Source: Paenibacillus pabuli
GTDB lineage: Bacteria > Bacillota > Bacilli > Paenibacillales > Paenibacillaceae
Length of the DNA stretch: 64,000 bases
Reading direction: 5' to 3'
NCBI RefSeq assembly: GCF_023101145.1
Contig: NZ_CP073714.1
Coordinates: 4,650,001-4,714,000 of the forward strand
In this document: positions 17,255 to 32,803 of the stretch, piece by piece
Position numbering within the stretch: position 1 is the first letter of the stretch
Layout of the letters: every line of letters starts with the position of its first letter
Program-made: the position numbers and the translations under genes
The notes under the pieces: generated by a model
What the model was told of the DNA's origin: nothing
Database searches by the model: none
The model's input: only the letters and a program-made list of their open reading frames with translations

Positions 17255-18018
17255 GTATGAACCATTCCTTCCACCGGACTACTCGCTGCTGCATAACGCT
17301 TTACGGGAATCATGCCTGCCTCATAAGCCAGTCTTCCTGCTTCAACCCCCATTCGCATTGCCTTCGCCATCTTCACTGGGTCTCCGGATCCGGAGACGGC
17401 TGTATTCAACAATACACCGTCTGCTCCCAGTTCCATTGCATGAGCAGCATCTTTAGGTGCACGAAGTCCTGCATCCACAATGACAGGAACGACAGCTTGT
17501 TCAATAATAATCTCCAGATTATAAGGATTAATAATTCCTCTCCCCGCCCCTATGGGCGAAGCCCCAGGCATGACAGCATGTACGCCGAGTAGCTGCAATC
17601 GCTTGGCCAAAATAACATCGTCCGAAATATAAGGCAGTACCGTAAAGCCCTTTTCAAGCAGGATCTCGCAAGCTTTATAGGTTTCAATCGGGTCAGGCAG
17701 CAAAGTGATTCCATCGCCGATGACTTCCACTTTTATCATATCACAAAGACCCGAAGCCCGAGCAAGTTCAGCAATTCGCACAGCTTCCTCTGCTGTTGAA
17801 GCACCAGCTGTATTGGGAAGCAGCGTATACCTTTTTAAGTCCAATGTGTCCAGAAAATGCTGTTTGTTCCGATCCTCCAGATTCAAACGCCGAACTGCAA
17901 ATGTTAATACTTCCGTACCTGAAGCTTCAACCGCCTGGCTTTGCACTTCCAAGTCCGAAAATTTGCCTGTACCCAAAAGCAATCTGGACTCAAATGTATA
18001 ATTTCCAATCCTCAACAT
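17251..18018 (-). CDS. thiG: Thiazole synthase ThiG
   Basis: Makes the thiamine thiazole from deoxyxylulose phosphate, dehydroglycine and ThiS thiocarboxylate; 255 aa TIM barrel. Motifs include [14 protein letters not shown] at the N-terminus, the lysine-containing [11 protein letters not shown] (probable Schiff-base lysine), [13 protein letters not shown] and [20 protein letters not shown]. The start at 18018 is preceded by GGGAGG, which is part of the thiS C-terminal glycine codons. It is tightly linked between its partners thiS and thiF. Confidence 0.96.
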
Positions 18019-18021
18019 AAT

Positions 18022-18225
18022 TCAACCGCCTCCCACAAAATGTACAATTTCAATTCGATCTCCGTCTCTTATGGCTGTTGTCTCATGATATTCACGTGTT
18101 AAAATTTGCCGATTCAATTCAACCACGACGGTTTTAACTTGCAAATTAAATGAATGGAGCAATTTGTCCACACGATCTATGCTATCTTCAATTTGCATGG
18201 TTTGTCCGTTGACAATGATATTCAC
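18022..18225 (-). CDS. thiS: Sulfur carrier protein ThiS
   Basis: Ubiquitin-like sulfur carrier of 67 aa ending in the required Gly-Gly (VHFVGGG). ThiF adenylates this tail and ThiG uses its thiocarboxylate. The beta-grasp pattern MNIIVNGQTMQIEDS is typical. The start is GTG at 18225, nine bases after AAAGGAGAT, and lies inside the end of thiO with a 38-base overlap in another frame. Confidence 0.95.
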   Translation of the reverse strand: MNIIVNGQTMQIEDSIDRVDKLLHSFNLQVKTVVVELNRQILTREYHETTAIRDGDRIEIVHFVGGG

Positions 18226-19450
18226 TGAGCATCTCCTTTCGGTTCATACGATTTGGACTAAGATCCTGAATTCCCAACTCTTCAGAAGTTTTACCGTAGA
18301 TCAAATCAGCCATTAAGCTGCCCGTAATCGCACTAAGCAGTATGCCATTACGATAGTGTCCAAAAGCAGCGAATAAGCCGGGAATACTATCACAAGCCCC
18401 TATATAGGGCAATCCATCCGGGGTCGAAGGTCTAACTCCTGCCCATGCCCGAAGAAAATGCGCTTCCTTCATGCCAGGTACCCAGCTTGTCGCAGCAGTA
18501 AGCAATTTCTGAATGCCTTGAACTGAGACTTTTGTATCTGTTTTTCCAGGAAGGCTGGTTGCACCGAGCCACACTTCTCCATTGGCTTTGGGCACAATAT
18601 ATATATCCTCTGCATAGACCGTTTTGTCAGGTCTGTAACCAACATGATGGGGTGAGAACTGCACCGCTGCAATTTCACCCTTCACAGGCAAAACAGGTAA
18701 ACCAATGTCCACTTGTTTCATCAACTCATCTCCATGTAATCCTGTTGCAACAATGACATTCTTCGATGTCATCGTTCCTATTGAAGTCTTGATTCCCTGC
18801 ACTCCGTTGAAATCCGTATGCAAGCGGACATCCTGAACACCTTCCACCACCCTTGCTCCCATGGCTTGGGCCGATCTGACATAAGCCTGAGTTAGATGGA
18901 CAGGAAGAACTTCGCTCTCGGAAGGTCTGTAATATGCACCGTACGTATTCCTGTTCAACCATGACGCTTCCTGTTGAACAGCGACACGATCCCACCAAAT
19001 GGGTTTTTCAGAGAAATTCGAAGATCGGCTATTTTTGTAATCGCTGACCTCACTGTATGAACGAAAAGGAGTAATAAAACCACTCTGTTGCAGCCCCATA
19101 TCTACTCCGCTAAGCGAACTGATTCGTTCCTTTTGCTCATGAAGCAGCGCTTTGCTTTGCCATGCAAGCTTCGCCATCACAGCATGAGTGAATTCCTCAC
19201 TGTCAGCAGCAAGCATTCCGGCGGCTGCGCTGGAAGTTCCCCCGGCAATTCGCGCACGCTCAACCAGAAGAACGTCATGGCCTCGGGTTGCGAGTTCACA
19301 TGCGATGGCACATCCGATAACTCCTCCGCCTACAATAATGGTTTCTGCATGCAGTTTTCCTCGAATTTCGGTTCCAGCTTTTCTCATGGGTACCGTTCCT
19401 TGATGAAAATTTGAACGATTCCCACTTCGATTTTTTGCTTCCTCACTCAT
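18188..19450 (-). CDS. thiO: Glycine oxidase ThiO
   Basis: FAD-dependent D-amino-acid oxidase-like enzyme that turns glycine into the dehydroglycine used by ThiG. It is 420 aa, about 50 longer than B. subtilis GoxB because of an N-terminal extension of roughly 30 residues before the FAD motif TIIVGGGVIGCAIACELATR. Downstream are GGTSSAAAGMLAAD and the C-terminal FAD signature FAAFGHYRNGILLSAITG. The ATG at 19450 has AAGGAGAT six bases upstream, so the extension appears real. Its end overlaps thiS. Alternative: another DadA-type oxidase, excluded by operon context. Confidence 0.93.
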   Translation of the reverse strand: MSEEAKNRSGNRSNFHQGTVPMRKAGTEIRGKLHAETIIVGGGVIGCAIACELATRGHDVLLVERARIAGGTSSAAAGMLAADSEEFTHAVMAKLAWQSKALLHEQKERISSLSGVDMGLQQSGFITPFRSYSEVSDYKNSRSSNFSEKPIWWDRVAVQQEASWLNRNTYGAYYRPSESEVLPVHLTQAYVRSAQAMGARVVEGVQDVRLHTDFNGVQGIKTSIGTMTSKNVIVATGLHGDELMKQVDIGLPVLPVKGEIAAVQFSPHHVGYRPDKTVYAEDIYIVPKANGEVWLGATSLPGKTDTKVSVQGIQKLLTAATSWVPGMKEAHFLRAWAGVRPSTPDGLPYIGACDSIPGLFAAFGHYRNGILLSAITGSLMADLIYGKTSEELGIQDLSPNRMNRKEMLSEYHCQRTNHAN

Positions 19451-19475
19451 GATCTCATCTCCTTGATTCGGCGTA

Positions 19476-20129
19476 CTACTCTGAATACACGATCGCCTGC
19501 CGCAATGAAGCTGCGGCCAGTTCTGGCCTATCGTTCGTCCAAATCGTTGAAATCACAGCCGCTCCTCTGGCACCAGCAGTCCGAATGGCAGCAATATGCT
19601 CAGGTCCAATCCCGCCAATCGCGATCACCGGAATCGAAACATTGGAGCACACCTCAGCCAATGCACTAAGCCCTCTGGGTTCACAATTTGGTTTACTACT
19701 TGAATGATAGACATGCCCATAGAAGAGATAGTCCGCACCACGTTCTTCAGCAACTTTTGCTTCTTCCAGCGAATGAACCGATATCCCTAAGCGGGGCCGA
19801 TCGACTATCCTCAACACATCCTTATCATAGCGGCGAATAACTGCTTGACCCCAATGCACACCACCAAACAAAGCATGTTGATCCAGCTGATCTAGGCCGT
19901 TCATAACAATTCGATTAGATGGAACACCTTGTGTTTTTAAATTTTGTGCCCAATCCATCTGCTGCTCAGGGGTCAGCTTTTTTTCCCGAATATGGATATA
20001 ATCGACCCACCTCCATATATCCTTAGCTGTATTCAGGAAAGAGTCCCTATCTCCTGTACCTGATGAAACCACATGCAGTTCAAATGATTGTGTTTTTACA
20101 TGTTTGTGGAAGTTTGCCGTCCTGTTCAC
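19476..20129 (-). CDS. tenI: TenI-type thiazole tautomerase / ThiE-like protein; start uncertain
   Basis: About 215 aa, TIM-barrel family shared by thiamine phosphate synthase ThiE and the thiazole tautomerase TenI. Its SVHSLEEAKVAEERGADYLF, FYGHVYHSSSK and IPVIAIGGI motifs are nearer to TenI, and the tenI-thiO-thiS-thiG-thiF order matches the Bacillus tenA-tenI-goxB-thiS-thiG-thiF cluster. The start is a problem. The open frame begins at GTG 20177 inside the riboswitch terminator stem, which cannot be right. The only later in-frame GTG, at 20129, directly abuts GAGGAGG with no spacer. Homology begins near FELHVV at about 20087, where no standard start codon is well placed. A non-standard start or sequencing error is possible. 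Confidence 0.8.
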   Translation of the reverse strand: MNRTANFHKHVKTQSFELHVVSSGTGDRDSFLNTAKDIWRWVDYIHIREKKLTPEQQMDWAQNLKTQGVPSNRIVMNGLDQLDQHALFGGVHWGQAVIRRYDKDVLRIVDRPRLGISVHSLEEAKVAEERGADYLFYGHVYHSSSKPNCEPRGLSALAEVCSNVSIPVIAIGGIGPEHIAAIRTAGARGAAVISTIWTNDRPELAAASLRQAIVYSE

Positions 20130-20165
20130 CCTCCTCTTGCATGATTTAAGCCGATCTAAAACAAC

Positions 20166-20194
20166 AAAAAAAGCCACTCCCGTAGGGAGTGGCC
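20166..20194 (-). terminator. Riboswitch-controlled terminator before tenI
   Basis: Perfect GCCACTCCC-TAC-GGGAGTGGC hairpin followed by seven T on the minus strand, between the TPP aptamer and the tenI ribosome site. This is the off-state terminator of the thi leader. Confidence 0.85.
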
Positions 20195-20608: not shown

Positions 20609-22159
20609 CTATTGTTTCTCGGACCAAGCTTCAACATCCCACGTTTTGGTAACCCAACCCTCATAGAATTCAGGTTCATGGGATACGAGCAGTACGGTAC
20701 CCTTGAATTCTTGCAAGGCACGTTTCAGTTCTGCCTTGGCCGTCACATCCAAATGGTTTGTAGGCTCATCGAACAATATCCAATTGCTTTCACGCATCAG
20801 AAGTTTACACAAACGAACTTTAGCTTGTTCACCACCACTAAGTGCGTTAAGTGGACGGGTGATATGCTCATTTTTCAATCCGCAGCGTGCGAGATGGCCT
20901 CGAACTTCATTCTGTGTCAGATGAGAAAATTCATTCCACACATCTTCAATTGGGGTAATATTACCTGCACGTACTTCCTGTTCGAAATAGGCTGTTTCCA
21001 AATAGTCACCCAAGAAGGTCTTTCCGCTGATTGGCGGGATTTTACCCAAAATAGTTTTGAGCAGTGTGGATTTACCTACACCGTTACAGCCAACAATGGC
21101 AATTTTCTCACCACGCTCAATCGTCATCGTCATTTTGGGCAATAAGGCATACGTATACCCTATTTCAAAATCAATGCCCTCAAAGACGGTTTTACTACTC
21201 GCCCGGGCATCCTTGAATTTGAATGTGGGTTTGGCCGCTTCGTCTGGACGATCAATCCGTTCAATCTTGCCGAGCTGCTTTTCACGGCTCTTGGCACGAC
21301 CGGAAGTGGAAGCGCGGGCTTTGTTCCGCTGAATGAAATCTTCCTGCTTCTTGATATATTCCTGCTGTTTCTCATAAGCATCAATATGCTGAGCCTTATT
21401 CATGTCGGCCATTTCAAGGAATTTGTTATAGTTCGCTGAATAACGCGTCAATTTGGCAAATTCCAGATGATAAATAACGTTAACGACCTCATTCATAAAC
21501 TCCGTATCATGCGAAATCAGAATAAACGCATACGGATAATCCTTCAGGTAACGTGTCAGCCATTCAATGTGTTCTACATCAAGGTAGTTCGTCGGCTCAT
21601 CCAGCAGAAGTGCTGTGGGTTTCTCCAGTAAAAGCTTGGCAAGCAATACCTTTGTACGCTGACCACCACTAAGCGCGGCCACGTCACGATCCAGACCGAT
21701 GGCGGACAAGCCAAGACCATTTGCCATCTCTTCTACTTTCACATCAATCAGATAAAAATCACCTTGCTCCAATTGTTCCTGAATGTCACCCATTTCTTCC
21801 AGCAACGATTCGAGCTTATCTGGATCGGCGTCTGCCATCTGATCGGTGATGGACATCATTTCTTTCTCCAGCTCAAGCAATGGCAGGAACGCATCCTTCA
21901 ACACATCACGAATCGTTTTTCCAGGCGTGAGCTTGGTATGCTGATCCAGATATCCATAACGAACTTTGGGGGTCCATTCGACCTTCCCTTCGTCCTTTAA
22001 CAATTTCCCGGTAAGGATGTTCATCAATGTGGACTTACCCACACCATTTGCACCAACAAGGCCTACACGTTCTCCGGCAAGTAAACGAAAAGATACATTT
22101 TTAAATAACGTGCGGTCTCCAAAATTGTGACTCACGTTCTCTACTGACAATAAACTCAT
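20609..22159 (-). CDS. ABC-F family ATPase, YfmM type
   Basis: Soluble ATPase with two ABC domains and no membrane part (516 aa), of the translation-factor-like ABC-F group. Walker A motifs are GANGVGKSTL (about residue 40) and GCNGVGKSTL (about residue 350). Each is paired with an LSGG signature and a Walker B plus EPTN motif (LLLDEPTNYLD, ILFDEPTNHLD). The linker between them is Lys/Arg-rich (YEKQQEYIKKQEDF), as expected for insertion near the ribosomal E site. The N-terminus and linker remind me most of B. subtilis YfmM. Antibiotic resistance versus housekeeping ribosome rescue cannot be decided from sequence. Confidence 0.85.
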   Translation of the reverse strand: MSLLSVENVSHNFGDRTLFKNVSFRLLAGERVGLVGANGVGKSTLMNILTGKLLKDEGKVEWTPKVRYGYLDQHTKLTPGKTIRDVLKDAFLPLLELEKEMMSITDQMADADPDKLESLLEEMGDIQEQLEQGDFYLIDVKVEEMANGLGLSAIGLDRDVAALSGGQRTKVLLAKLLLEKPTALLLDEPTNYLDVEHIEWLTRYLKDYPYAFILISHDTEFMNEVVNVIYHLEFAKLTRYSANYNKFLEMADMNKAQHIDAYEKQQEYIKKQEDFIQRNKARASTSGRAKSREKQLGKIERIDRPDEAAKPTFKFKDARASSKTVFEGIDFEIGYTYALLPKMTMTIERGEKIAIVGCNGVGKSTLLKTILGKIPPISGKTFLGDYLETAYFEQEVRAGNITPIEDVWNEFSHLTQNEVRGHLARCGLKNEHITRPLNALSGGEQAKVRLCKLLMRESNWILFDEPTNHLDVTAKAELKRALQEFKGTVLLVSHEPEFYEGWVTKTWDVEAWSEKQ

Positions 22160-22278: not shown

Positions 22279-22308
22279 AAAAAGACTGCCGTTAATTTAA
22301 CGAACAGT
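22279..22308 (-). terminator. Intrinsic terminator of the Tad-like operon
   Basis: ACTG-TT-CGTTAA / TTAACG-G-CAGT hairpin followed by CTTTTTG on the minus strand. The stop codon of the last gene (22292) lies inside the stem. Confidence 0.65.
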
Positions 22309-23275
22309 TAAACTCAAAATATCCTTGCGCTGCCGCTTGTTTGGCATTTGTAAACACTTCTTCGGCTCTATAACCATTGCTACATGTGGAAGGGTAATAA
22401 TATTTAATTCCACTTACCGGATCAACTCCGCCAACAATAGCTGTTTTCTTAACCAGTCTGCCACCACCGATAGCATAATTGTTAATTTTTTGGTTACCTA
22501 CAGGTATTCCCTGAATAAAAGCCATAAGGCCCGTGTCATTTAACGAATTGTACCAGTCTTCCTGTGAAATTAAAGGCATGGTAAAGGTATAGGAAACACC
22601 ATTCCTTCTTGCAAACTCATTATGCCGGTTGATTACATCTGCCAAATCTTCCTGCACACTTGTCACGATCCGACTTCGTCTGACCTGCTCAAACGTCTCG
22701 GCATTCTGAAGCAAAGGGATTTGCGTGCTGGAGGCCAGTTCTTTCTGAAAACCCTCCACCCACTTCCCCAAGCCGGCATCATAGGCATACACATACCCAT
22801 CGAGTGTGAAGTTAATACTGCTACCGTTTGAATCAAAATATGTATAGGGCTTTTTGGGACTCCACACCTGCCTAAATGAATCTTCAGTGTTTCCGGTAAG
22901 CTCTGTTTCATTCGCCAAAATATAGTAACCATCATAATCCAACATGACCAGTGCAGGAATGTAATTAAACATGGCCCGTATCGCAGCAGGATCATCCTGG
23001 ATTCCCATATTTAACGCCATGGTCTGGGTAAACGTAGTCAAAGCTAGCTCTTTATCCGCCTTTACAAATTTGGTCGAATCATATCCTGCTTCATCGTTTT
23101 GCTTCTCATTTTGATGCATCACGGCCCCTGCATCCAGTACAGCAGTCTGAAGTGCCATCTTATATCGACTGCTTAAATATTGGACCTCGTGAGCATTGTT
23201 TGTGTTGTGAGAGATCAGCCAGAATATAGGTAAAAAGATAAGCACAAACACAATGGAAAGATCAGTAATCTTCAT
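22292..23275 (-). CDS. Tad-locus single-span membrane protein, function unknown
   Basis: Protein of about 327 aa with one N-terminal membrane helix (LSIVFVLIFLPIFWLI) and a large extracellular or periplasm-equivalent domain. I choose the ATG at 23275 (MKITDLS), which follows GGGGGA and overlaps the previous gene by 14 bases; an ATG 18 bases earlier lacks a ribosome site. The topology and terminal position suggest a minor pilin-like or TadE/F-like surface component. Tyr/Gly-rich segments and a conserved-looking C-terminal CSNGYRAEEVF...CSLN region with two cysteines are visible. I recognise no named family. Confidence 0.7.
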   Translation of the reverse strand: MKITDLSIVFVLIFLPIFWLISHNTNNAHEVQYLSSRYKMALQTAVLDAGAVMHQNEKQNDEAGYDSTKFVKADKELALTTFTQTMALNMGIQDDPAAIRAMFNYIPALVMLDYDGYYILANETELTGNTEDSFRQVWSPKKPYTYFDSNGSSINFTLDGYVYAYDAGLGKWVEGFQKELASSTQIPLLQNAETFEQVRRSRIVTSVQEDLADVINRHNEFARRNGVSYTFTMPLISQEDWYNSLNDTGLMAFIQGIPVGNQKINNYAIGGGRLVKKTAIVGGVDPVSGIKYYYPSTCSNGYRAEEVFTNAKQAAAQGYFEFNCSLN

Positions 23276-23813
23276 TGAGTACCATTCCCCCATATGTGGT
23301 AAATACAGCTGCAGCCTGCGCAGTCCCGTTCAACCATTCACGAATCAACATGGCAGGCGTGCGATTCGTATTTTTGACGGTCACTGTGAAGAAATCCCCC
23401 ATGGCCAGTGTATACCTCCTCCCAGGATCGTCTAAAACCAGCGCACCGGACGAAGGAAACAGCTTTGCTTTAATTTGAGCTGAATAATAGCCATCTTGTA
23501 CAGTTTCATAGGTACCAGTGAATGTGTTTTGATCCATCGGATCAGAGTAATGAGGAACATATTTTTTGTGCAAATGCTCCATGGATATCTCATAGGCATT
23601 CCCCGTTCGGGCCAGCTGTTCTTCGAACTCTGCATACATGGCAGGGGTAATGTATCCCTTTGTTCTGACCGCATCAACAAAACGGGTAACCGTCTGAACA
23701 ACAATCATGCGTGCCATGTCATCCTGTCGATCAGCAGTTTCTGCTGCCGGGTATACATAAAGCAAAATCACTGCCAGCAAAACAGCAAGCAGCTTGGATG
23801 TGGCATTAATCAA
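23262..23813 (-). CDS. Tad-locus small membrane protein, function unknown
   Basis: About 183 aa with an N-terminal membrane helix (KLLAVLLAVILLYVYPA) and a soluble C-terminal domain. The best start is TTG at 23813, ten bases after AAGGAGG. It overlaps the stop of the preceding gene (CC-TTGA), giving translational coupling. An upstream in-frame TTG at 23834 covers the ribosome site itself. The size and single span fit a TadE/TadF-like minor pilin, but no family motif is recognised. Confidence 0.7.
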   Translation of the reverse strand: MINATSKLLAVLLAVILLYVYPAAETADRQDDMARMIVVQTVTRFVDAVRTKGYITPAMYAEFEEQLARTGNAYEISMEHLHKKYVPHYSDPMDQNTFTGTYETVQDGYYSAQIKAKLFPSSGALVLDDPGRRYTLAMGDFFTVTVKNTNRTPAMLIREWLNGTAQAAAVFTTYGGMVLNEDY

Positions 23814-24208
23814 GGTGTACTGCCCTCCTTCCAAAATGCAATCTTTAGCAGTTCGCCAGCCTCATTTCTTATGAACTCAGGTCTATACGAAGCAGCAAGC
23901 TGAACAGGTATGGTCTCTTTTCTGTTTACAAGAGGATCAATGACATATGCATTCCCGTCCACCTCAACGCTGACCATCGTTCCTGTCATTTGCCTTACAG
24001 TGTGTAAGACTTCCGCACCACTGTAAAGGGTTGGCTCGCTTATACGCAGAGTGGTATTTAATCTTCCTTCCATGTCTGCTGTCGTACGTACCAAATGATT
24101 CAAAGCGTCTGATAGAACTCTAACATTCTGCTGCCCGTACAGGCAGGCTGTCACAAATAGGACAACCGCCGTACAGAACAACATGAGCTGCTGTGTATTC
24201 CGGGACAT
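23810..24208 (-). CDS. Tad-locus small membrane protein, function unknown
   Basis: Protein of 132 aa with one N-terminal hydrophobic helix (LMLFCTAVVLFVTACLYG) and a short hydrophilic domain. It lies 16 bp after the 161-aa gene and overlaps the next gene by four bases. By position and topology it is a candidate minor pilin. No processing motif of type IV prepilins (a Gly before a Phe-Thr-Leu-like helix) is seen. Confidence 0.7.
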   Translation of the reverse strand: MSRNTQQLMLFCTAVVLFVTACLYGQQNVRVLSDALNHLVRTTADMEGRLNTTLRISEPTLYSGAEVLHTVRQMTGTMVSVEVDGNAYVIDPLVNRKETIPVQLAASYRPEFIRNEAGELLKIAFWKEGSTP

Positions 24209-24224
24209 GATAAACCAACTCCTG

Positions 24225-24710
24225 TCAGGATTGCTGGAAAATAAGTCCTCTTACTACGTTGGATTTGTCTTTTACGATAATCGCTTTGAATTTACCGCTT
24301 GGATTGACATATTGGTTATCTTTTTCGCTCATGGTCTGGTTGATTACGCCCACTTTCTCATCTGGTTTAATAACAGAGCCATAATCCTCATTATTGAGAT
24401 CCTGGGAAATGTTCAACTGATTTCCATACCATTGTCCTCCTTTATTTTTACCTGTAATAACTTGAATCCCGAACTGATCCTTGTCCGCATATTTACGCAA
24501 TGCATTCGTAACCTGCGATCCGCTAATAGTTGTTCCGTCATACACCGTAAATGCAGCTTGAGACAACTCGGTCTGGATATCAGCAAAATTGTTTTGCGCC
24601 GTTTTGGTCGCCTCCTGAGCTGAAATAAACAACAGAACTACAATCGTAATAAGGGCGATGGTCAAAAATATTCCTGCTGCCACCTTTAAAGCGCTTGATG
24701 CATTGTTCAT
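24225..24710 (-). CDS. Candidate Flp-like pilin or structural subunit of the Tad-like system
   Basis: Protein of 161 aa: short polar N-terminus, a long hydrophobic helix (LKVAAGIFLTIALITIVVLL, about residues 8-28) and then a soluble polar domain. It is the first of four small single-span proteins downstream of the TadBC fusion gene, the place where Flp or pseudopilin genes sit in Tad loci. A 60-bp gap with its own ribosome site separates it from that gene. The sequence lacks the short Flp length and the usual cleavage motif, so the pilin assignment is inference. Confidence 0.6.
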   Translation of the reverse strand: MNNASSALKVAAGIFLTIALITIVVLLFISAQEATKTAQNNFADIQTELSQAAFTVYDGTTISGSQVTNALRKYADKDQFGIQVITGKNKGGQWYGNQLNISQDLNNEDYGSVIKPDEKVGVINQTMSEKDNQYVNPSGKFKAIIVKDKSNVVRGLIFQQS

Positions 24711-24770
24711 GATAAATCCTCCTATAATGATTAGTTTTTAATATATTTCAGACTGTGACGTACATGCTCG

Positions 24771-26837
24771 TTACAGTTTCTGAATCTGTTCATAATAAAT
24801 GTTCATTTGCAGGAAACTCATACCTACCAGCGGAATGACCAGATAGAGGAAGATCAGGGCATACATCGGTGTAAATCCGATCATTCTTCCCCATGATGCT
24901 TTCACATCAATCATCTTGGTATACTCCTGCTTCCGTTGTTCAAAATAAAAGGCCATCATGCTGTCCAGATCATCAAAAGCTTCACGAATTGAAATTTTGC
25001 CTAGTGCAAGCTGCAGCTTTTCAACCAAACGCTGAAATTCAGGCAGGCCCGCATCCTCTTTCAATTGTTCAAGCGCATGCTCCGGTCCGTGTTCAAAGTG
25101 CAACAGACACTTTTGCAGCGGCCTTTTGAAAATGACAGCAAAACGATTCAGCCACTCTATTATTTCCTCTACAGACATACGATCCATCTCTCGCAAGATA
25201 GAGATAACCGTCTGAAACTGATAGATCTCATGCCTCATGTCCATGCTTCTCATCTTGCGTTGGAACACCATGAGCCAGATCGGTATGTGATACCCCGCAA
25301 TACCGATCATCACCGCAATAATGAACTCCCACCAGCGGAGGTATTGCTTGTTGTACACTTCAAGCTTTTGCAGGATGCGTGCAATGGTTGCAGTCTGTGT
25401 ATCATGGTCCAGTTGAACGGGATTTATGGACTGTAATGCATTGGAGATCTCATCAAAAGTTGCTCCTCGCTTCATTTCGATGCGTTCGAGCACGGCTTGA
25501 TCCAAACTTGACTTTTCGGTTGCCTGCTTCAATTCCGCCTCTCCCATCGTGCCAAACATCCGGTCATCTCTCACAGGATCATGTAAGATGTGATTTCGTT
25601 CAACCTGATGCAGCAGAAAGACACAGCCGAGGGTCAGGACAAAACAACTTGCAAATAACATCAGCCTTCGTATAGCCAGCCATTCGTATTTCAGTTCCGA
25701 GCTGCTTTCCCGCATCAGCCTTACGGTTTGGCTGTAATTAGCACTTCCAGGTTTGGCCGCGAACAACATCGCAACTTTACGAATGAACGTCTGCTTGTAC
25801 AGGAACTGATCTATCCTGGAGTGTTTGCGCCCAGTGCGATAACGGGTTTCATCATATTGCTGAAGTCTTTGCAAGAGAAGATAGGCAAGTATGATAATGA
25901 CGTAGATCGATATTTTGGTAACAAACCCGATTTTGCTGCGATAGAATTCATCCATCGTCGGAAAACTTCCTCTGGCCCAACGTTCAATTGGAGCTGTGAA
26001 CAGAACAGGGGCCAGGGCAATGATATTTAACCCTTTTAACAGATAATCCAATTTGTCCCGCCGCAAAATCTCAAGATGAATTTCCTGCGTCAGATTTCCA
26101 AGGCCTTTCAAGTAAATCGAACCCTGTGCTCTATCCTTATCCCCGAACTCCATCACCATATATGAAATACCGGCAAAACCTTTAAGAAAGCGATTTGGTG
26201 CAATCTCATAGTAACGTTCCAAAGCTTCATTAGGATCCGGAGAAGTTAATGCTTCATAGATCAACAGTACTTGCTCGGCAGCCTCTCCTTTCCCTGCTTC
26301 TGCTGCTTCATACAGTGCTTCCTCTACCATCCCATGCTGATGATACCGATGTCTCACGTCGGCAAACAGGTCCAACATCTGCACCAACAGTCGCTTTTCC
26401 ATACGATTCAAACACATATCCAGCACAAGACTGTTTAGAACTACAGCACATAGTACCGACAATATGACAAAGGCAATACCCGGCTGCAAGAGGAAAAGGA
26501 TTACACTGATACTGCCGTATCCTCCGGAGATCATTAGAACCACGTTCATCGTCATTCGCCTTAATGCTGGTTCGTCCCCGATATGCCGGAATGAGATTCG
26601 TTTCTGTACTTGCAAAATATACATGGAGAGCAGCGGCACTTTCATGCCCCAGCGATAGGACTTTAATAGGAAAGACCCCCACCGAAACGTACTTCTTACG
26701 TTCAGCTTAGCGCTTCCGATAGATCTGCTTGCAGTGTCAATTCCTCTATGACGTAACAGATTCAGTACAAGCAGTGTAATTACCAGGCCACCTGCACATA
26801 TGCCCAGCACCAAAACAAGTAACAGCTTAACGGTCAT
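24771..26837 (-). CDS. Fused TadB/TadC-like inner-membrane platform protein
   Basis: Protein of 688 aa with two type II secretion F-like (GSPF) cytoplasmic domains, at about residues 145-300 and 530-680, each flanked by hydrophobic helices. In classical Tad loci TadB and TadC are two separate genes; here both halves are in one chain. I chose the ATG at 26837 (MTVKLLLVLVLG), which follows GGGGTGAT and overlaps the ATPase gene by 11 bases. It should form the membrane platform driven by the CpaF-like ATPase encoded just upstream. Confidence 0.75.
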   Translation of the reverse strand: MTVKLLLVLVLGICAGGLVITLLVLNLLRHRGIDTASRSIGSAKLNVRSTFRWGSFLLKSYRWGMKVPLLSMYILQVQKRISFRHIGDEPALRRMTMNVVLMISGGYGSISVILFLLQPGIAFVILSVLCAVVLNSLVLDMCLNRMEKRLLVQMLDLFADVRHRYHQHGMVEEALYEAAEAGKGEAAEQVLLIYEALTSPDPNEALERYYEIAPNRFLKGFAGISYMVMEFGDKDRAQGSIYLKGLGNLTQEIHLEILRRDKLDYLLKGLNIIALAPVLFTAPIERWARGSFPTMDEFYRSKIGFVTKISIYVIIILAYLLLQRLQQYDETRYRTGRKHSRIDQFLYKQTFIRKVAMLFAAKPGSANYSQTVRLMRESSSELKYEWLAIRRLMLFASCFVLTLGCVFLLHQVERNHILHDPVRDDRMFGTMGEAELKQATEKSSLDQAVLERIEMKRGATFDEISNALQSINPVQLDHDTQTATIARILQKLEVYNKQYLRWWEFIIAVMIGIAGYHIPIWLMVFQRKMRSMDMRHEIYQFQTVISILREMDRMSVEEIIEWLNRFAVIFKRPLQKCLLHFEHGPEHALEQLKEDAGLPEFQRLVEKLQLALGKISIREAFDDLDSMMAFYFEQRKQEYTKMIDVKASWGRMIGFTPMYALIFLYLVIPLVGMSFLQMNIYYEQIQKL

Positions 26838-28653
26838 AGGTATCACCCCAATGTTGCTGGATGAACTGTTCGAACCGCTCAGCATCCTGTATGGTCATCT
26901 GATCCCGCATATCTGTGATACTCCCTATGGAGATCGGGGCTGTGACAATGTAATTGCCATCCCTGTACTCAATTACATTGCGAGACGTAAAGCCCGCCCG
27001 TTCTTCCACGCTGTCCCCTTTACTCGAAAGTGGCAGACACTCCGTGATTCGTTCGATATATCTTCTTCCCTCTGCGTCTTTTTTCATATGTACATCAAAA
27101 TTAATGACACTTACTACTTGCTCCTCGGCAATATGTTCATGTTGGAACATACCTGTTTTGAGCAGTGAATTACGGAGGGAGAAGACCAGATCACGAAACG
27201 TTTTGGCATGATGGGTAAACAGGGTGAACAGGCTGGCAACCTGGGACATCTGAATCATCCATGCTGCTACCTCGTCACTTGCGACCTCACCAAGTATATT
27301 TACAGTACCGTCCGTCTTTTTCTGTAAGTCCAGTCCCTGTTGACCTGAAATGTGCTCGGTCTCCCGGAAGCTTAGAATGTTACGCCGACTGTATATACGC
27401 CGCAGTTGTAGCTCGAAAGCCATTTCCTGCACACGCAGGGTATACGAAGCGTATATATGTTTCACCATCGCCATGAGCAGAGTCGTTTTACCCGACCCCT
27501 GTGCTCCTGTTACAGCTGTAATTCGACTTCCTTTCATCAAATATTGCAGTAAAGTGATTGGCAGTTCTGCGTTGTTTCCGGTAATCAGCTGCTCCAGTGA
27601 AGCATTGGGAATATCAAATTTCCGGACAAAGAATGCCCATGATTCAGCAAAGGGCGGGCGCACAACAACGACACGTGATCCATCCTTCATCTCGTTTACC
27701 TTGTATCCATTCGCTTCTGAAAGCTGTCCTGGATAGTTGTATTTATAAATATTTTGACATACCCTTTTCAGTTCACGGATACTGCCAAATGACAGAAAGG
27801 ACAGATGAATCGACTTACCTTTATAGAAAATCCATACACTTTCCATTCCGCTAAGTGGCTCTTCAAGGGCAGCATCTTCAAGTCCATCCTCCAAGAGATC
27901 GTTCCACGAAGCTGGCTGCCGTAGCCCAATATCCTGAACGGCATCCAGCATACCGCTCACTCCACCACTAACACCATCTATTCGTTGATCCCTTATTTCA
28001 TCAACCACTGAGAAACCTTTATAATGTTGATAGATGCGCTGAACGATGATATCTGTTTTTTCTCTGAATCCAAGCTCTCTGTACTCACACTCAAACACAT
28101 ATCGGATGTCCTCTTCGGAGATATAGTAACTTCCTCCATCGTCTGCACCTTCACCCAGCCTCAATCTGCCAAGATCATAGGTATCAATCATGCGGGACAA
28201 GGCATCGACACCAAATTGCTGCCGGTATAGATAAAACACGATTTCGAATTGATCTTGAACCGTCAGCAACTCCGTTTCCCCAAAATAAATAACCTCATCT
28301 ATATTCGTCTTATTCAGTCCTATGCTGCGGGTAAGCAGATCACCTATCAGATTTTTGACATACGTTTTGTCACTTATGCTTCCTGATACACAACCTTTAA
28401 GCGCCTTACGCATCTCGGCACGCTGATTAATTCTTCGACGATATTCTTCTTCATGCAATCCGGCATCAGCCAGTTGACTATGACTGAGCTCATGTAGCGA
28501 GTTTTTTACTTTCTCTGTCAGCACTTCAATCGTGAAGGATTCACGCTCAGGAGCACGTTTATTCTTTTCACGATGGGAAATACTGTATTTGAACCAAACA
28601 TATGCAAGGCATAACAGCAAAATTAAAATTAACCACAGGGTATTCCAGAGCAT
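26827..28653 (-). CDS. CpaF/TadA-like secretion ATPase with N-terminal membrane anchor
   Basis: Hexameric pilus or secretion ATPase, 608 aa. The Walker A motif is GAQGSGKTT at about residue 382. The Walker B/His-box region follows with NILGEVASDEV and TLFTHHAKT, the Tad counterpart of the usual GEVRG and HANS motifs. Unlike most CpaF proteins it begins with a membrane helix (LWLILILLLCLAYVWF) before a 250-residue N-terminal domain, so the motor is probably tethered to the membrane. It lies between TadZ-like and TadBC-like genes, the canonical neighbourhood. Confidence 0.8.
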   Translation of the reverse strand: MLWNTLWLILILLLCLAYVWFKYSISHREKNKRAPERESFTIEVLTEKVKNSLHELSHSQLADAGLHEEEYRRRINQRAEMRKALKGCVSGSISDKTYVKNLIGDLLTRSIGLNKTNIDEVIYFGETELLTVQDQFEIVFYLYRQQFGVDALSRMIDTYDLGRLRLGEGADDGGSYYISEEDIRYVFECEYRELGFREKTDIIVQRIYQHYKGFSVVDEIRDQRIDGVSGGVSGMLDAVQDIGLRQPASWNDLLEDGLEDAALEEPLSGMESVWIFYKGKSIHLSFLSFGSIRELKRVCQNIYKYNYPGQLSEANGYKVNEMKDGSRVVVVRPPFAESWAFFVRKFDIPNASLEQLITGNNAELPITLLQYLMKGSRITAVTGAQGSGKTTLLMAMVKHIYASYTLRVQEMAFELQLRRIYSRRNILSFRETEHISGQQGLDLQKKTDGTVNILGEVASDEVAAWMIQMSQVASLFTLFTHHAKTFRDLVFSLRNSLLKTGMFQHEHIAEEQVVSVINFDVHMKKDAEGRRYIERITECLPLSSKGDSVEERAGFTSRNVIEYRDGNYIVTAPISIGSITDMRDQMTIQDAERFEQFIQQHWGDTYDR

Positions 28654-28660
28654 CGGATGT

Positions 28661-29491
28661 TCAGGCTCCCCTTTCCAGCCTCTTTAGTACAGTACGCATC
28701 CCTGCCCCGTCCATAATGAGGCGAGCGAGTTCAGTCATACTTGCGGCAAAGCTCCCTTTACGAATATCTTTATTGTTGCTTAGACCTTCCAATTGCAAGT
28801 ACGCGGCCGCATCACGACGATTAAAGGCATCCAGAAATCCTGTAGTATACGGCAACACTGATATCGATCCCTTGTATCGAAAACGTCGACGAATATTAGT
28901 AATGCTTGTGCGTGAATGTGGATCATACTTATTCAGTACGACATGCAGCTTTTGATCACTCATACTCTCAGGTCTGATTTTTTCAAAAAAACACTCCAAA
29001 TCCCTCATATTTTGATTCAAGTTCACCACAACGAAGTCCGCGTGTTCCAGCAGAACCGGGGAACTTGTGCCTGCACGATCTGCATCCAGAAGAACCAAAT
29101 CATAATATTCATTGGCTACGTGCAGCAGCCTTTTTAATGTCTCCACATGCTCTTCTTTTGAACGTTCCAATCGGTTAATTCTTCCAGTCAACAAATCCAG
29201 ACGGTCTTTAAGGAGCGGCTTGGTATAATCCCTCAAATTATGCTTATTCAGACTACCGCTGATATGCAGCCGTTCAATCGCATCCCATCCCCCCTCTTCA
29301 AAATTAAAATCCGAACCTGTTTCCCCAATTTCATTGGGGGGAAGGGCAGCTTCTGTGCTACTCCCAACTGGACCAGTATTTACAAGCAAAATTCTTGTCC
29401 TATATTGAAGTGCCATGGCATAGGCGGCGATTAACGCACTTGAGGTGCTGCCTGTTCCAGCAAAAGGACTCCAAAACGTAATAGTGCTCAT
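28661..29491 (-). CDS. TadZ/CpaE-like P-loop protein with degenerate Walker A (second copy)
   Basis: 276 aa, ParA/MinD-like fold. The N-terminal strand-loop reads FWSPFAGTGSTSSALIAAYA, where a ParA member would have a lysine-containing KGGxGKT loop, so ATP binding is probably weak or absent. The later DLVLLDADRAGTSSPVLL resembles the Walker B region. TadZ proteins localise Tad machines to a pole or site. Its last bases overlap the start of the CpaF-like gene region by close spacing (7 bp). It is a paralogue of the preceding 237-aa protein. Confidence 0.65.
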   Translation of the reverse strand: MSTITFWSPFAGTGSTSSALIAAYAMALQYRTRILLVNTGPVGSSTEAALPPNEIGETGSDFNFEEGGWDAIERLHISGSLNKHNLRDYTKPLLKDRLDLLTGRINRLERSKEEHVETLKRLLHVANEYYDLVLLDADRAGTSSPVLLEHADFVVVNLNQNMRDLECFFEKIRPESMSDQKLHVVLNKYDPHSRTSITNIRRRFRYKGSISVLPYTTGFLDAFNRRDAAAYLQLEGLSNNKDIRKGSFAASMTELARLIMDGAGMRTVLKRLERGA

Positions 29492-30201
29492 GCCCTCATC
29501 CTTTCTGCTTCTTTAATAGCCCGCCGACTCTGAACATTTTCCCAACCGGTCAACTGCTCCACTAACCTGCATAGCGACTTTTTATAGTTCCGCGATAATG
29601 GCCCCAGGCGTATCCGGCGATGATGCTCGTTTTCCAGTTTGACTGCTGCGGTCAGTTCATCCCAAGGCAACATCAGCGATTCCCCTGTCCATACAAATGG
29701 ACTACCTTCCAGATACGCCCACAAATATCGAGCTTCCAGTTTGCAATCAACGGCATTGATCAAAATACGCTGGAATGGCAGTTCTGCAGGCAGGGACTGT
29801 TCTTCAAACAAACGCTTTAGCCAGCCTTTACCTCGTTCCAGATTGTAACGTTCATAATCACTGACCCAGACACGGATATCAGCCGTGAGCCATAGATCAC
29901 GTGATGCAAAGTGCGATGTTTCCATATCGTAAAGGACATAATCATAGGTCTCCAATTTCTCGCCACTCGCTTCAAGATGACTTTCAACCGCTGTTGAAGT
30001 TACGAACTGACAGGCAATATCAAAGCCCTCAAACTCTGTAATACGCAGAGATTGCTGACTTCCCCCTGTACCGTATCCATATTTTTGCTGCAATGTTCCA
30101 TCTACAAGTAAGACACGTTTACCGGAGGATGCCAATATTTTGCAAAGGTACAGCATCAGGTCATTTTTCTCGCATAACCCGGCAAAAATCCATATTTGCA
30201 T
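29488..30201 (-). CDS. TadZ/CpaE-like protein without Walker A (first copy)
   Basis: 237 aa from the ATG at 30201 (MQIWIFAGLC), which follows AGGGG; the in-frame TTG nine bases earlier lies almost on that site. The fold resembles the ParA family (VLLVDGTLQQ, DYVLYDMETSHFASRD), but the P-loop position reads FAGLCEKNDLMLYL with no glycine-rich loop or GKT. It overlaps the second TadZ-like gene by four bases. The pair may form a heteromeric localisation or assembly factor; that is inference. Confidence 0.6.
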   Translation of the reverse strand: MQIWIFAGLCEKNDLMLYLCKILASSGKRVLLVDGTLQQKYGYGTGGSQQSLRITEFEGFDIACQFVTSTAVESHLEASGEKLETYDYVLYDMETSHFASRDLWLTADIRVWVSDYERYNLERGKGWLKRLFEEQSLPAELPFQRILINAVDCKLEARYLWAYLEGSPFVWTGESLMLPWDELTAAVKLENEHHRRIRLGPLSRNYKKSLCRLVEQLTGWENVQSRRAIKEAERMRA

Positions 30202-30275
30202 AGCTATCAAAGCCCCTTTTAAATTCTTTTAATCGTTGTTACACGAAGAGAAGAAATGATTGTTTTTCTCGTGTT

Positions 30276-31298
30276 TTACTCCCCGCCCGTCAGCAAGCTT
30301 TTCTGCTCATCCGAACTCGAAGCTGATGCTGAAGAATCATTGCTTTCTGTACCCGTCGTACCGCCACTACCTGAACCGTCATTCCAGATGACCCCATCAG
30401 TAGATGAAGAGTTACTCGCTCCAGGGCGATTATTGTATGAGACGGAAGATTGTGCAACATCCTGCTCCACACCTTGAGATGGCGCAGAGATGGATGCGGA
30501 GAGTGAGCTTTCTAGCGAACTCCTTACTTGCCGTGCCAACTCCACTTCAGCCCGACGCACCAGATTAGGATCACTCTCCAACAGTTTTAACACTTCATTG
30601 TTAGCAGGGTATGTTGGGGTTGCTGGTGTCTGGAACTGTGGTTCTACATAGGTTAAGGCATAGATTGAAGCTTTATGTAAATAGGCATCTACAATTGCAC
30701 TTGAAAGGGACAAGATCTCCTCCTCCGTCATCGTAATCCATAGTGTAGCTGCATTTAATCTTTCGACTTTCTTTTTGGACAGGAGAACGTAGTCTTGACC
30801 CGTTGGAAACTGAATACGAATATCAATGATGTCTCCCTTAGCAAGTGAAGAAGGTAGTAATACAACCTGTAGTTCACGATTTCTTAAATCCGGCGAAGGC
30901 GGGGTATCCTCATACACCATTTCAGTTGTAATGGCTGTTCCTTTTTTTAATTCTATTTTCGCCACTTGACCATCCATCTGCTTGGAGCTCGACCACAGAT
31001 TCCTTGGTGCCTGTGCATCTGGAACGGCTATCAGTTTGATATCCTCGGGCAATATCGACTCTCCTGCTTCAACATCCCGTATAGTTACCCATCCCTGTGC
31101 CCCCGAGTTCCATTGTTGCATCAATTCAGCTTCTTTTTGTTCGTAGACTGATGAGTAACGAGCCTCCACTTCAGCCCTCGTATCACTCATGGTTTTGACA
31201 TTGTAAATGACATATGCCCCAAACAACAGACCAATTGCTCCTGCTCCCGTCAGTCCGGCATATATCAGTTGACGGCTTTGTTTTCGTAATTTAGACAA
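30276..31298 (-). CDS. CpaB/RcpC-like SAF-domain protein
   Basis: 340 aa: an N-terminal membrane helix (AGLTGAGAIGLLFGAYVIYNV), a coiled segment and a SAF domain at about residues 65-130 (VTIRDVEAGESILPEDIKL, VAKIELKKGTAITTEMV). A second RcpC-like domain follows, and then a long Ser/Gly-rich tail of about 100 residues. CpaB proteins are assembly factors of Tad pili; in a Gram-positive cell without a secretin the SAF domain may bind wall polymers, which is inference. It lies 26 bp downstream of the kinase-fusion gene. Confidence 0.75.
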   Translation of the reverse strand: MSKLRKQSRQLIYAGLTGAGAIGLLFGAYVIYNVKTMSDTRAEVEARYSSVYEQKEAELMQQWNSGAQGWVTIRDVEAGESILPEDIKLIAVPDAQAPRNLWSSSKQMDGQVAKIELKKGTAITTEMVYEDTPPSPDLRNRELQVVLLPSSLAKGDIIDIRIQFPTGQDYVLLSKKKVERLNAATLWITMTEEEILSLSSAIVDAYLHKASIYALTYVEPQFQTPATPTYPANNEVLKLLESDPNLVRRAEVELARQVRSSLESSLSASISAPSQGVEQDVAQSSVSYNNRPGASNSSSTDGVIWNDGSGSGGTTGTESNDSSASASSSDEQKSLLTGGE

Positions 31299-31324
31299 AA
31301 GAGGCTCTCCTTTCGCAATTTCTT

Positions 31325-32803
31325 CTAATCATGTACTCTTCTTCTTGCAAAGAGTGAACGTTTCTTGGGAAGCTGCCCCATCAAATGAGTCAGAATATGA
31401 GCAAAAACCTTATCCATCTGCGGTTCCCGATCAAAAGGATCGATATGTAAAGGCAGACCATAGACACTGGAAGTATCCAACGTTTTGCGCATCCGCTGAA
31501 CGGCGTCAGATGCTGCAAGTGGCAGGCAGTAAATCCATTTGTCTCTCGGGTACCGATTGTGTGAACGGACAAAAGCTCCAATCTCTGCTTGTCTCCATTC
31601 GGCACCAGAACCAATAACAATGGGCAGATCTGCTCTGAGAAACTCTTCGAGCCGGTTCTGATCTTGACCACTGCCCAGATCCATCACAATGAACTGATAG
31701 CTGCCTCCTAATAAAGACAGGATGTCTGCTCTTCCTGATTGTTTCCAATAATGCACGCCATCCACTGCAAACTGTCTGCCTGCTGGCACGGGTTTACCTG
31801 CATGCGCCACTTGTTGAATTCGTGCAAACGATTGGGAACGTGGTGACATCTCGATTATGGCTACTTTGAAATTCTGCCGCTCCAGATAGTGACTGATGGC
31901 TATGGCCGTATGCGTAACCCCAACTCCGGATGATGCCCCTGTCAAAGCGATCACTCTGGTCCCTCCGCTTATCGTCACCGTCGTTTCTAAACTACCAGCT
32001 GTTATTCCCGGTCTGCGCAGCATCTCCTTACGAACTTCATCAGCAGATTGAAAGCGCTCATTTGGATTCAGTCGTAACAACCTTCTCGCAACAGGAATAT
32101 AAGTACGAGGTACATCACTGCGAACGGAACTCTCTACTCCCTGAATCCATTCCGTATAAGCTCCACAAGTCATGAGATAGAGCAGCAATGCTCCAAGCCC
32201 ATACAGGTCAGAACGAGCATCCGTCTGTCCTGAACCATATTGTTCCGGTGCTGCGAAACCTGCCGTTCCCAATTTAACCGTATCATCGACGCTTTGTGCT
32301 TTATAGCTCCTTGCTATCCCAAAATCAATCAGTCTGACTTCATGTTCCGGAGTAATCATAATGTTGGATGGTTTTAAATCCCGATAGATGACAGGCGGGT
32401 CCAGACTGTGCAAATAACTTAATACATCCAGCAACTGGAGCACAAACTCCGTCATATGTTCAAGCGGAATCTTCCCTCGACATTGCTTGAAATACTCACC
32501 AAGTGTCAATCCCTCGATATACTCCATCACAAGATACGTATACCCGTGCTCATCCGGGACAAAAAAATCTACGATTTGTGGCAATCTGGGATGTCTCAGA
32601 GATGTAAGGAGAGCAGCTTCCGACTCCATACTGCCTTCGTATGGCATCGCCGTCACGCTTTCTTTGATCGCCCAGGTTTTACCCGGTAACTTCAAATCCT
32701 CCGCTTCATATACATGACTCATTCCACCCGATCCGAGAATGGACACGATACGATATCTTCCTCCCAGCAGGCTTCCGCGTTCGAGCCTGGCCGGATGTCT
32801 CAT
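31325..32803 (-). CDS. Hanks-type Ser/Thr kinase fused to a ParA-like P-loop domain
   Basis: 492 aa from the ATG at 32803, which follows AAGGAGGAGTACAT. Residues 15-270 are a kinase: glycine loop LGSGGMSHVY, Lys47 in WAIKES, catalytic loop IYRDLKPSN (Tyr for His) near residue 139, DFG in LIDFGIAR near 160, then AAPEQYG. From about residue 275 the chain continues as a ParA/TadZ-like NTPase domain starting VIALTGASSGVGVTHTAIA, a P-loop that lacks the usual lysine. No membrane helix or PASTA repeats. It is the first gene of the Tad-like operon and presumably controls or localises the machine. The domain boundary is approximate; the fusion itself is directly visible. Confidence 0.85.
   Translation of the reverse strand: MRHPARLERGSLLGGRYRIVSILGSGGMSHVYEAEDLKLPGKTWAIKESVTAMPYEGSMESEAALLTSLRHPRLPQIVDFFVPDEHGYTYLVMEYIEGLTLGEYFKQCRGKIPLEHMTEFVLQLLDVLSYLHSLDPPVIYRDLKPSNIMITPEHEVRLIDFGIARSYKAQSVDDTVKLGTAGFAAPEQYGSGQTDARSDLYGLGALLLYLMTCGAYTEWIQGVESSVRSDVPRTYIPVARRLLRLNPNERFQSADEVRKEMLRRPGITAGSLETTVTISGGTRVIALTGASSGVGVTHTAIAISHYLERQNFKVAIIEMSPRSQSFARIQQVAHAGKPVPAGRQFAVDGVHYWKQSGRADILSLLGGSYQFIVMDLGSGQDQNRLEEFLRADLPIVIGSGAEWRQAEIGAFVRSHNRYPRDKWIYCLPLAASDAVQRMRKTLDTSSVYGLPLHIDPFDREPQMDKVFAHILTHLMGQLPKKRSLFARRRVHD

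Follow-up and report, generated by a model that had tools for sequence, protein, structure and literature searches.

What machine is built by ten tightly spaced genes on one strand of the Paenibacillus pabuli chromosome, when some of them point to a Tad pilus and others do not? The genes lie in a stretch of 64,000 nucleotides (NCBI RefSeq assembly GCF_023101145.1, contig NZ_CP073714.1, positions 4,650,001 to 4,714,000 of the forward strand), which we call the window and whose own numbering is used unless another locus is named. A preliminary description made from the DNA letters alone had proposed a Tad-derived machine, for a surface fiber or for export, that brings its own kinase. That is still the best reading. 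As we would now put it, the operon is best read as encoding a divergent, remotely Tad-related member of the type IV filament superfamily, present on plasmids and on Paenibacillus chromosomes, with a surface module of SLH and DUF5704 proteins.

The operon consists of ten minus-strand open reading frames (ORFs) running from about 32803 to 22292 with short overlaps or gaps between neighbors, numbered g1 to g10 in transcription order (lengths in amino acids, aa).

31325..32803, minus strand: g1, Ser/Thr kinase plus TadZ/MinD-like domain with a degenerate P-loop, 492 aa from ATG
30276..31298, minus strand: g2, SAF-domain protein (PF08666), possibly CpaB/RcpC-like, 340 aa
29488..30201, minus strand: g3, TadZ/MinD-like protein with a degenerate P-loop; ATG 30201 chosen as start, the ORF opening with TTG 30210
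28661..29491, minus strand: g4, TadZ/MinD-like protein by hhalign, 276 aa
26827..28653, minus strand: g5, CpaF/TadA-like motor ATPase by hhalign and profile matches, with an N-terminal hydrophobic segment, 608 aa
24771..26885, minus strand: g6, multi-span candidate platform with two repeated helical modules in the predicted model, 704 aa
24225..24710, minus strand: g7, candidate major filament subunit by conservation and model, 161 aa
23810..24208, minus strand: g8, fast-evolving g7 paralogue by hhalign, candidate minor subunit, 132 aa
23262..23834, minus strand: g9, single-span protein conserved in the loci, candidate minor subunit, 190 aa
22292..23293, minus strand: g10, single-span protein conserved in the alignment, candidate minor or tip subunit, 333 aa
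32927..32956, minus strand: promoter-like sequence 5' of g1, TTTACA-18-TATAAT, 11/12

The layout agrees with the preliminary description, which had a tightly spaced, one-strand operon of ten genes over 22292 to about 32803. It had also listed four small single-span proteins; g7 to g10 do have one clear span each, next to one long multi-span protein, g6, while g10 with its 333 aa is not small. The g1 start at ATG 32803 is preceded by AAGGAGG. By alignment, g10 probably starts at a conserved MKIT six codons inside its ORF, at about 23275. The promoter-like sequence in front of g1 is a lead only, as such sites are no commoner than in shuffles (23 versus a shuffle mean of 26.5).

A canonical locus in the same genome serves as an internal Pfam control for the ten proteins. 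The genome, a single contig of 7.6 Mb, encodes two ATPases of the T2SSE family: g5 and, at 1.71 Mb, a canonical CpaF. The latter belongs to a canonical monoderm Tad locus, L113 (G000:C1 about 1711007-1721886; L113:7008-17886), where TadZ-like protein, CpaF, TadB, TadC, Flp1-like pilin, TadE-like proteins and peptidase are all recognized by Pfam. L113 additionally encodes proteins with DUF5702 and with FHA/DUF6382. In the ten proteins of the operon, Pfam recognizes the kinase and the SAF domain, and the ATPase with a score right at the cut-off. For g6 to g10, Pfam and NCBIfam give weak, uninformative rows only, and g9 matches no family of either. Remote relationships were read from hhalign, with g1 to g10 families built from the window plus 94 loci and canonical Tad families of 17 or 18 members drawn from 18 loci.

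The motor is the clearest link to Tad. The g5 family aligns with canonical CpaF at 99.6% (E = 6.3e-25), and in a profile search the best solved relatives of g5 are CpaF chains (8rkd at 2.9e-12, 9e24 at 4e-12). Its Pfam T2SSE score was 24.8 bits versus a cut-off of 24.9 in one search and 25.3 bits, above the cut-off, in another, and TIGR03819 is matched with E = 3.4e-10, under the family cut-off. By these profile comparisons g5 is a true though remote CpaF/TadA homologue, and the CpaF-like ATPase with a membrane anchor of the preliminary description holds, the anchor corresponding to an N-terminal hydrophobic segment.

TadZ-like domains number three, not the two previously described. Besides g4 (75.5% by hhalign to the canonical TadZ-like protein) and g3 (69.6%), the C-terminal part of g1 aligns with that family at 96.5% (E = 8.9e-10), and g4 aligns with g1 at 94.3%, so that a TadZ-like relationship of all three is shown at the level of sequence profiles. 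The kinase-P-loop fusion seen in g1 is borne out, with Pfam Pkinase in the N-terminal half (E = 2.1e-35) and a weak CbiA match in the C-terminal half. In the window and near relatives the kinase part, fused to the TadZ-like domain, carries RDLKPSN and DFG, which we take to be kinase motifs. It is not a universal part of the system, because four of the four g1 homologues of non-chromosomal type that were tested lack a Pfam kinase (L117, L123, L124 and L126); the g1 homologue of L118 retains the domain. By eye the N-terminal part of plasmid-type g1 resembles a degenerate receiver domain, a place where Pfam gives nothing. The SAF protein was also rightly named: g2 has PF08666 (E = 9.5e-7) and a TIGR03177 (CpaB) match of E = 7.4e-9, yet with 35 bits versus a cut-off of 71.

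The main point of interest in g6 is whether it is the fused TadB/C that the preliminary description had made of it. Canonical TadB and TadC of L113 match Pfam T2SSF and g6 does not; hhalign gives g6 4.0% to TadB and 1.6% to TadC, versus 94.7% for the positive control of TadB with TadC. Hence the fusion is unsupported by sequence, and the hidden Markov model (HMM) comparisons by which the preliminary description could have been refuted, to TadA and GSPF, have a divided outcome: they show a relationship to TadA/CpaF and, by sequence, do not show one to GspF/T2SSF. The two halves of g6 align with each other at 0.4%. The predicted model (predicted local distance difference test, pLDDT, 78.5; predicted template modeling score, pTM, 0.67) shows an equal order of long and short helices at about 137-307 and 518-703, as read from the element list. 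Foldseek finds no match with E up to 0.001, and the best E by sequence against the PDB is 0.33. In a structural second look the top row is one chain from a model of the type IVa pilus machine (Z = 7.8, root mean square deviation 9.5, 222 aligned) and the next is SpoIIIAB (Z = 7.3, deviation 3.7, 111 aligned, which is one module). We take both to be GspF-like, and 3jc8 chain Ca to be PilC. Since both rows are under Z = 8 and row 3, at Z = 7.2, is an unrelated protein, the fold likeness to GspF-type proteins is a lead and not a proof. This weak likeness of the predicted structure is what is left of the fusion, and g6 may be the platform.

The candidate subunits begin with g7, the most conserved of the ten, with a median identity to the window of 77% over L055-L112 versus 23-63% for the other nine. 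Its model (pLDDT 78.6, pTM 0.59) has a helix at residues 2-55 followed by an alpha/beta domain, an outline that suggests a type IV pilin. The best E by sequence against the PDB is 0.27. The codon adaptation index of g7 is 0.61, the highest of the ten (0.46-0.55 for the other nine), and canonical Flp likewise is the highest of five canonical Tad genes tested; the reference was 32 ORFs of the ribosomal region, some of them non-ribosomal, and the g7 value is not outstanding against the whole window (mean 0.57, sd 0.08). With g8, hhalign gives g7 97.3% (E = 1.6e-11), so by profile g8 is a fast-evolving paralogue of g7. We regard g7 as the best candidate for the major subunit on the grounds of its conservation, predicted pilin-like outline, paralogue g8 and codon adaptation, and g8 to g10 may be minor or tip subunits. 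Similarity to known Tad subunits is lacking: g7 to g10 align with canonical Flp at 3.0% at most and with canonical TadE at 1.7% at most, no PF07811 (TadE/TadF) is found among the ten, and canonical Flp itself matches PF16982. The statement that there is no obvious Flp stands, with the reservation that the paralogous pair g7 and g8 are pilin-like candidates.

The prepilin-peptidase pattern [GAS]xxxxE occurs within the first 35 residues in none of 94 g7 rows (82 distinct). The same loose pattern occurs in 9/94 g8, 11/94 g9 and 20/92 g10 rows, and in most of the examples shown it is within or behind the hydrophobic segment. As a rough control, TadE has it in 17/17 within 60 residues and Flp in 17/17 within 110, ranges wider than the one used for g7, and several of those first matches are not the cleavage site. 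Many g10 rows read MKIT and then D or E, by eye like the start of an already mature pilin. As the preliminary description had it, no Pfam match to a secretin or a prepilin peptidase is found among the ten proteins; the only PF01478 match of the genome is in the canonical Tad locus.

The operon itself is under purifying selection. In pairwise comparisons with five relatives the ratio of nonsynonymous to synonymous substitution (dN/dS) is 0.01-0.13 in all ten genes wherever computable, 7 of the 50 comparisons being saturated. For gene order, 80 loci were kept of 149 confirmed, and in 73 of them the ten genes are complete, collinear and on a single strand; a methyltransferase-like gene upstream of the operon in the window is also there in 74. 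Genes are absent at a locus end in L062, L071 and L108, no g1 match is found in L090, L092 and L097 (with g7 also relocated in L097), and the best g1 match of L106 is elsewhere. A strong g5 relative is present in 75/75 genomes of the genus (best E at most 4.8e-176), a count that does not equal 75 intact chromosomal operons: genomes G017, G022 and G074 have only copies of about 50% identity, and g5 is split between contigs in G042 and G057. The operon can be lost, because the chromosomal-type g5 is broken, interrupted or in pieces, in G025, G026 and G054. Wider sampling finds the g6 model in 31 of 348 genomes at class level, belonging to 7 of 134 genera, and in 5 of 358 genomes of the phylum sample, G484 by a short weak match. 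Two loci may be mislabelled: L073, titled Neobacillus mesonae MER 107, is a full Paenibacillus-type locus inside Paenibacillus in the tree, and L044, whose title gives P. polymyxa ISL-58, has P. xylanexedens and P. amylolyticus as its neighbors.

Relatives are also found on large plasmids of Bacillota. By tblastn, g6 is on 25 of 72,556 plasmid records, from Paenibacillus (11), Lysinibacillus (7), Butyrivibrio (2) and one each from Thermobacillus, Cohnella, Sporosarcina, Alkalihalophilus and Cytobacillus. Four plasmid operons were inspected; all have the ten genes in the same order, with a short g1 in L124, and all have an SLH-domain gene and then a DUF5704 gene behind the operon, directly or after one small gene. 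Three of the four have a replication-relaxation protein nearby and two have a coupling protein; L125 has neither in the stretch read. Close upstream of g1 in L126 and L123 there is a plasmid replication or FtsZ/TubZ-like gene. Downstream of DUF5704, annotations of GGDEF, HD phosphohydrolase or diguanylate cyclase (L124:29989-31779, L125:28924-29928) hint at cyclic-di-GMP control on those two plasmids. Paenibacillus sp. IHB B 3084 has two plasmid records, NZ_CP013205.1 and NZ_CP013206.1, with g5 and separate g6 parts at their ends (48-78% identity); they look like fragments of one chromosomal-type operon that assembly has cut.

How the plasmid and chromosomal copies are related was asked with a tree of 93 ATPases with 4 canonical rows of CpaF, leaving out L033-L035, L062, L113 and L123. 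Of 72 rows with the same upstream neighbor as the window, 70 fall in one clade (support 100), with L102 and L105 just outside. The 17 other copies include some on plasmids (L114, L115, L124-L126), some on contigs of unspecified kind and one on a chromosome-sized contig (L117, G051). The forks that nest the chromosomal clade within these have support 91-94, under the tool's star at 95; the tree-building method was a fast one, and the root region is where long branches join. The simplest reading, not firmly supported, is that a plasmid module was captured by the chromosome once or twice. Beyond the other end of the operon in the window there is an ABC-F gene at 20609-22159 and, downstream of it, ORFs at 17251-20177 that by eye resemble an ordinary set of thiamine biosynthesis genes.

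The last element is the SLH/DUF5704 pair. The window's operon has no adjoining SLH or DUF5704 genes, and the genome has two such pairs elsewhere, at about 2.04 Mb (G000:C1 about 2037594-2042611; L162:7595-12612) and about 5.96 Mb (G000:C1 about 5958303-5963229; L163:6304-11230), both DUF5704 genes being more than 1 Mb from the operon. The 2.04 Mb pair is 46% and 54% identical to that of plasmid pTHECO01. In L069, L070, L102 and L112 a pair stands directly behind a chromosomal g10. PF18964 (DUF5704) is found in 31 of 348 genomes of the class, a list that on reading is identical to the list for the g6 model; in the neighboring genus labelled g2, the 2 genomes with g6 have DUF5704 and the 7 listed without g6 have none. 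It is also found in 75/75 genomes of the genus and in 4/358 of the phylum sample, the four being the strong matches to the g6 model. On plasmids, 21 records have both (25 with g6, 22 with DUF5704), the exceptions being the two Butyrivibrio and the two IHB B 3084 records and one 16.9-kb record with DUF5704 only. A single DUF5704 is present in each of G017 and G022, where the chromosomal type is missing, and it adjoins their other copy; some genomes have many (8 matches in G048, 7 in G051). By eye, the DUF5704 and SLH proteins looked at have signal-peptide-like N-terminal segments, and with their SLH domains, or Ig-like domains in some DUF5704 proteins, they are probably located outside the membrane. 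DUF5704 proteins also have a conserved C-terminal stretch of 600-800 residues without a named domain. In our search of the open-licence PMC literature, DUF5704 was named in no paper found.

From these parts the following mechanism can be proposed. The CpaF-like ATPase g5 would drive the platform candidate g6, drawing membrane-anchored subunits out of the membrane. The major subunit would be g7, polymerized uncleaved into a thin filament with g8 to g10 as minor or tip subunits, and assembly would probably go without a prepilin peptidase because the subunits show no leader to cleave. The SAF protein g2 may form an alignment ring that guides the filament, a model borrowed from the RcpC ring (PMC12307814). 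The TadZ-like domains of g1, g3 and g4 would decide where or when this happens, switched by the g1 kinase, and the SLH protein and the giant exported DUF5704 protein would present the filament through or on the wall. It could be used for holding mating partners where plasmid-borne and for cell-cell or surface contact where chromosomal. We give somewhat better than an even chance to this as a whole: an uncleaved g7 filament driven by g5 via g6 and guided by g2, with g1, g3 and g4 setting time or place, presented by SLH/DUF5704 for contact with cells or surfaces. The extended version, on which we would not wager at even terms, is a separate branch of type IV filaments with never-cleaved pilins and an SLH/DUF5704 module that spans the wall or adheres, carried by large plasmids as a device for mating contact and domesticated by Paenibacillus at a fixed chromosomal place with the kinase replacing another N-terminal part of g1.

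The proposal is weakest in assuming that there is a filament at all and that it is made without a peptidase, and several observations weigh against it there and elsewhere. Compared by fold, the g7 model matches no solved structure significantly and has no pilin among its rows, a result that excludes nothing, and g6 shows the low hhalign values to TadB and TadC given above. A peptidase could act in trans, because one is encoded somewhere in 31/31 genomes with the system, the only genomes counted. In 12 of 15 matching genomes outside the genus the DUF5704 domain follows g6 at a distance of about 5-6 kb. Linkage thus accounts for much of the co-occurrence, and the weight rests on the unlinked cases: the genome of the window, the single-contig G002, G015, G034, G052 and G072 of the genus, and G176, G223 and G365. 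G025 retains its DUF5704 in spite of the broken g5. MOB-suite types 25/25 of the g6 plasmid records as non-mobilizable, and no transfer of pBsph and pBsph-2 was seen in one study (PMC4363355), although pBsph and p1593 are called conjugative in a later paper (PMC13239906).

Other machines could be built from the same genes. If g7 to g10 formed a short piston as in type II secretion, pushing DUF5704 or other exoproteins through the wall, the co-occurrence of DUF5704 with g6 and the multiple DUF5704 genes of some genomes would be natural, and type IV filament machines do include exporters (PMC6668835). With signal-peptide-like starts, however, the DUF5704 and SLH proteins could be carried over the membrane by the Sec route, and a one-membrane cell has little evident need of a piston, so we find the exporter unlikely. 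Less likely again is a diverged but otherwise ordinary Tad pilus of the monoderm kind, processed in trans by TadV from the canonical locus. For it speak the position of the genome's one peptidase in that locus, the 31/31 count, and a survey in which peptidases are treated as exchangeable between systems (PMC6668835); the processing pattern missing from every g7 row and the absence of Flp or TadE similarity in g7 to g10 speak against it. We rate just as low a machine for DNA transfer or uptake, with the plasmid copies as mating channel and the chromosomal copy a domesticated exporter or importer. The replication-relaxation and coupling proteins near plasmid operons would suit it, but Pfam finds neither relaxase nor coupling protein families among the ten window proteins and another channel is available. 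pTHECO01 has separate genes annotated as TcpE, conjugal transfer protein, ATP-binding protein and glucosaminidase, and pBsph-2, the pBsph-like plasmid of strain SSII-1, is reported to have homologues of VirD4, VirB4 and VirB6 along with a pilus assembly ATPase (PMC4363355). The other conjugation module of pTHECO01 lowers the mating-channel reading, and the operon may accompany plasmid transfer without being the channel for it. As to a decayed or untranscribed remnant, relatives with a broken or contig-split g5 give it a foothold, and for the copy in the window it is contradicted: the dN/dS values, intact ORFs and conserved order leave it next to no probability, and the selection signal excludes decay there, the other finding that would have refuted the preliminary description. 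We thus keep the contact filament as our preferred reading.

A review has prepilin peptidase as one of four proteins in every type IV filament system (PMC10191384), and a main subunit without the processing pattern makes this rule directly testable in harmless strains of Paenibacillus. The DUF5704 link offers that protein family a first functional context. The plasmid relatives suggest one way in which Gram-positive plasmids might bring partner cells together.

Where, then, does the operon belong among known systems? It lacks the make-up of a type IV secretion or conjugation locus: Pfam and NCBIfam find no VirB4, coupling protein or relaxase family among the ten, with g5 giving only generic P-loop and weak VirB11-like matches. 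An anti-phage defense system was rejected as well, PADLOC giving a strong match only for the g1 kinase, weak partial ones for g5 and g7 and none for the other seven, and so was a prophage or phage module, PHROGs giving only the kinase and one weak P-loop row and g6 being found in no phage record. Searches of open-licence PMC titles and abstracts for Paenibacillus Tad, Tad-like conjugation and type IV filament classification found no description of the system. In Paenibacillus sp. NAIST15-1, two pili loci, one of which may be this operon, were deleted and motility was unaffected (PMC5072692).

The tip locus of pXO16 from Bacillus thuringiensis sv. israelensis is alike by description only, as an unusual transfer system of a large plasmid with aggregation (PMC9673590), and differs in that no Bacillus record is among the 25 g6 plasmid records. 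With the SpoIIIA complex the likeness is one module of the g6 model, which aligns with SpoIIIAB at a middling Z, and no other SpoIIIA-like gene is named by Pfam or NCBIfam among the ten. The monoderm Com pilus is likewise a type IV filament of cells with a single membrane, and a single ATPase and a single platform gene serve it (PMC10191384); it has its own peptidase, whereas the present system has an ATPase of the CpaF/TadA kind and TadZ-like and SAF proteins. The remaining comparison is with the Tad pilus. We do not file the operon under that name because several Tad features are missing, together with one feature of type IV filaments, pilins with a class III signal: there is no Flp- or TadE-like subunit, the locus is without a peptidase, one long g6 takes the place of separate TadB and TadC, and a kinase fusion and SLH/DUF5704 partners are added. 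What it has in common with the Tad locus L113 of the same genome is a CpaF-type ATPase, TadZ-like proteins, a SAF protein that may be CpaB-like and single-span subunits.

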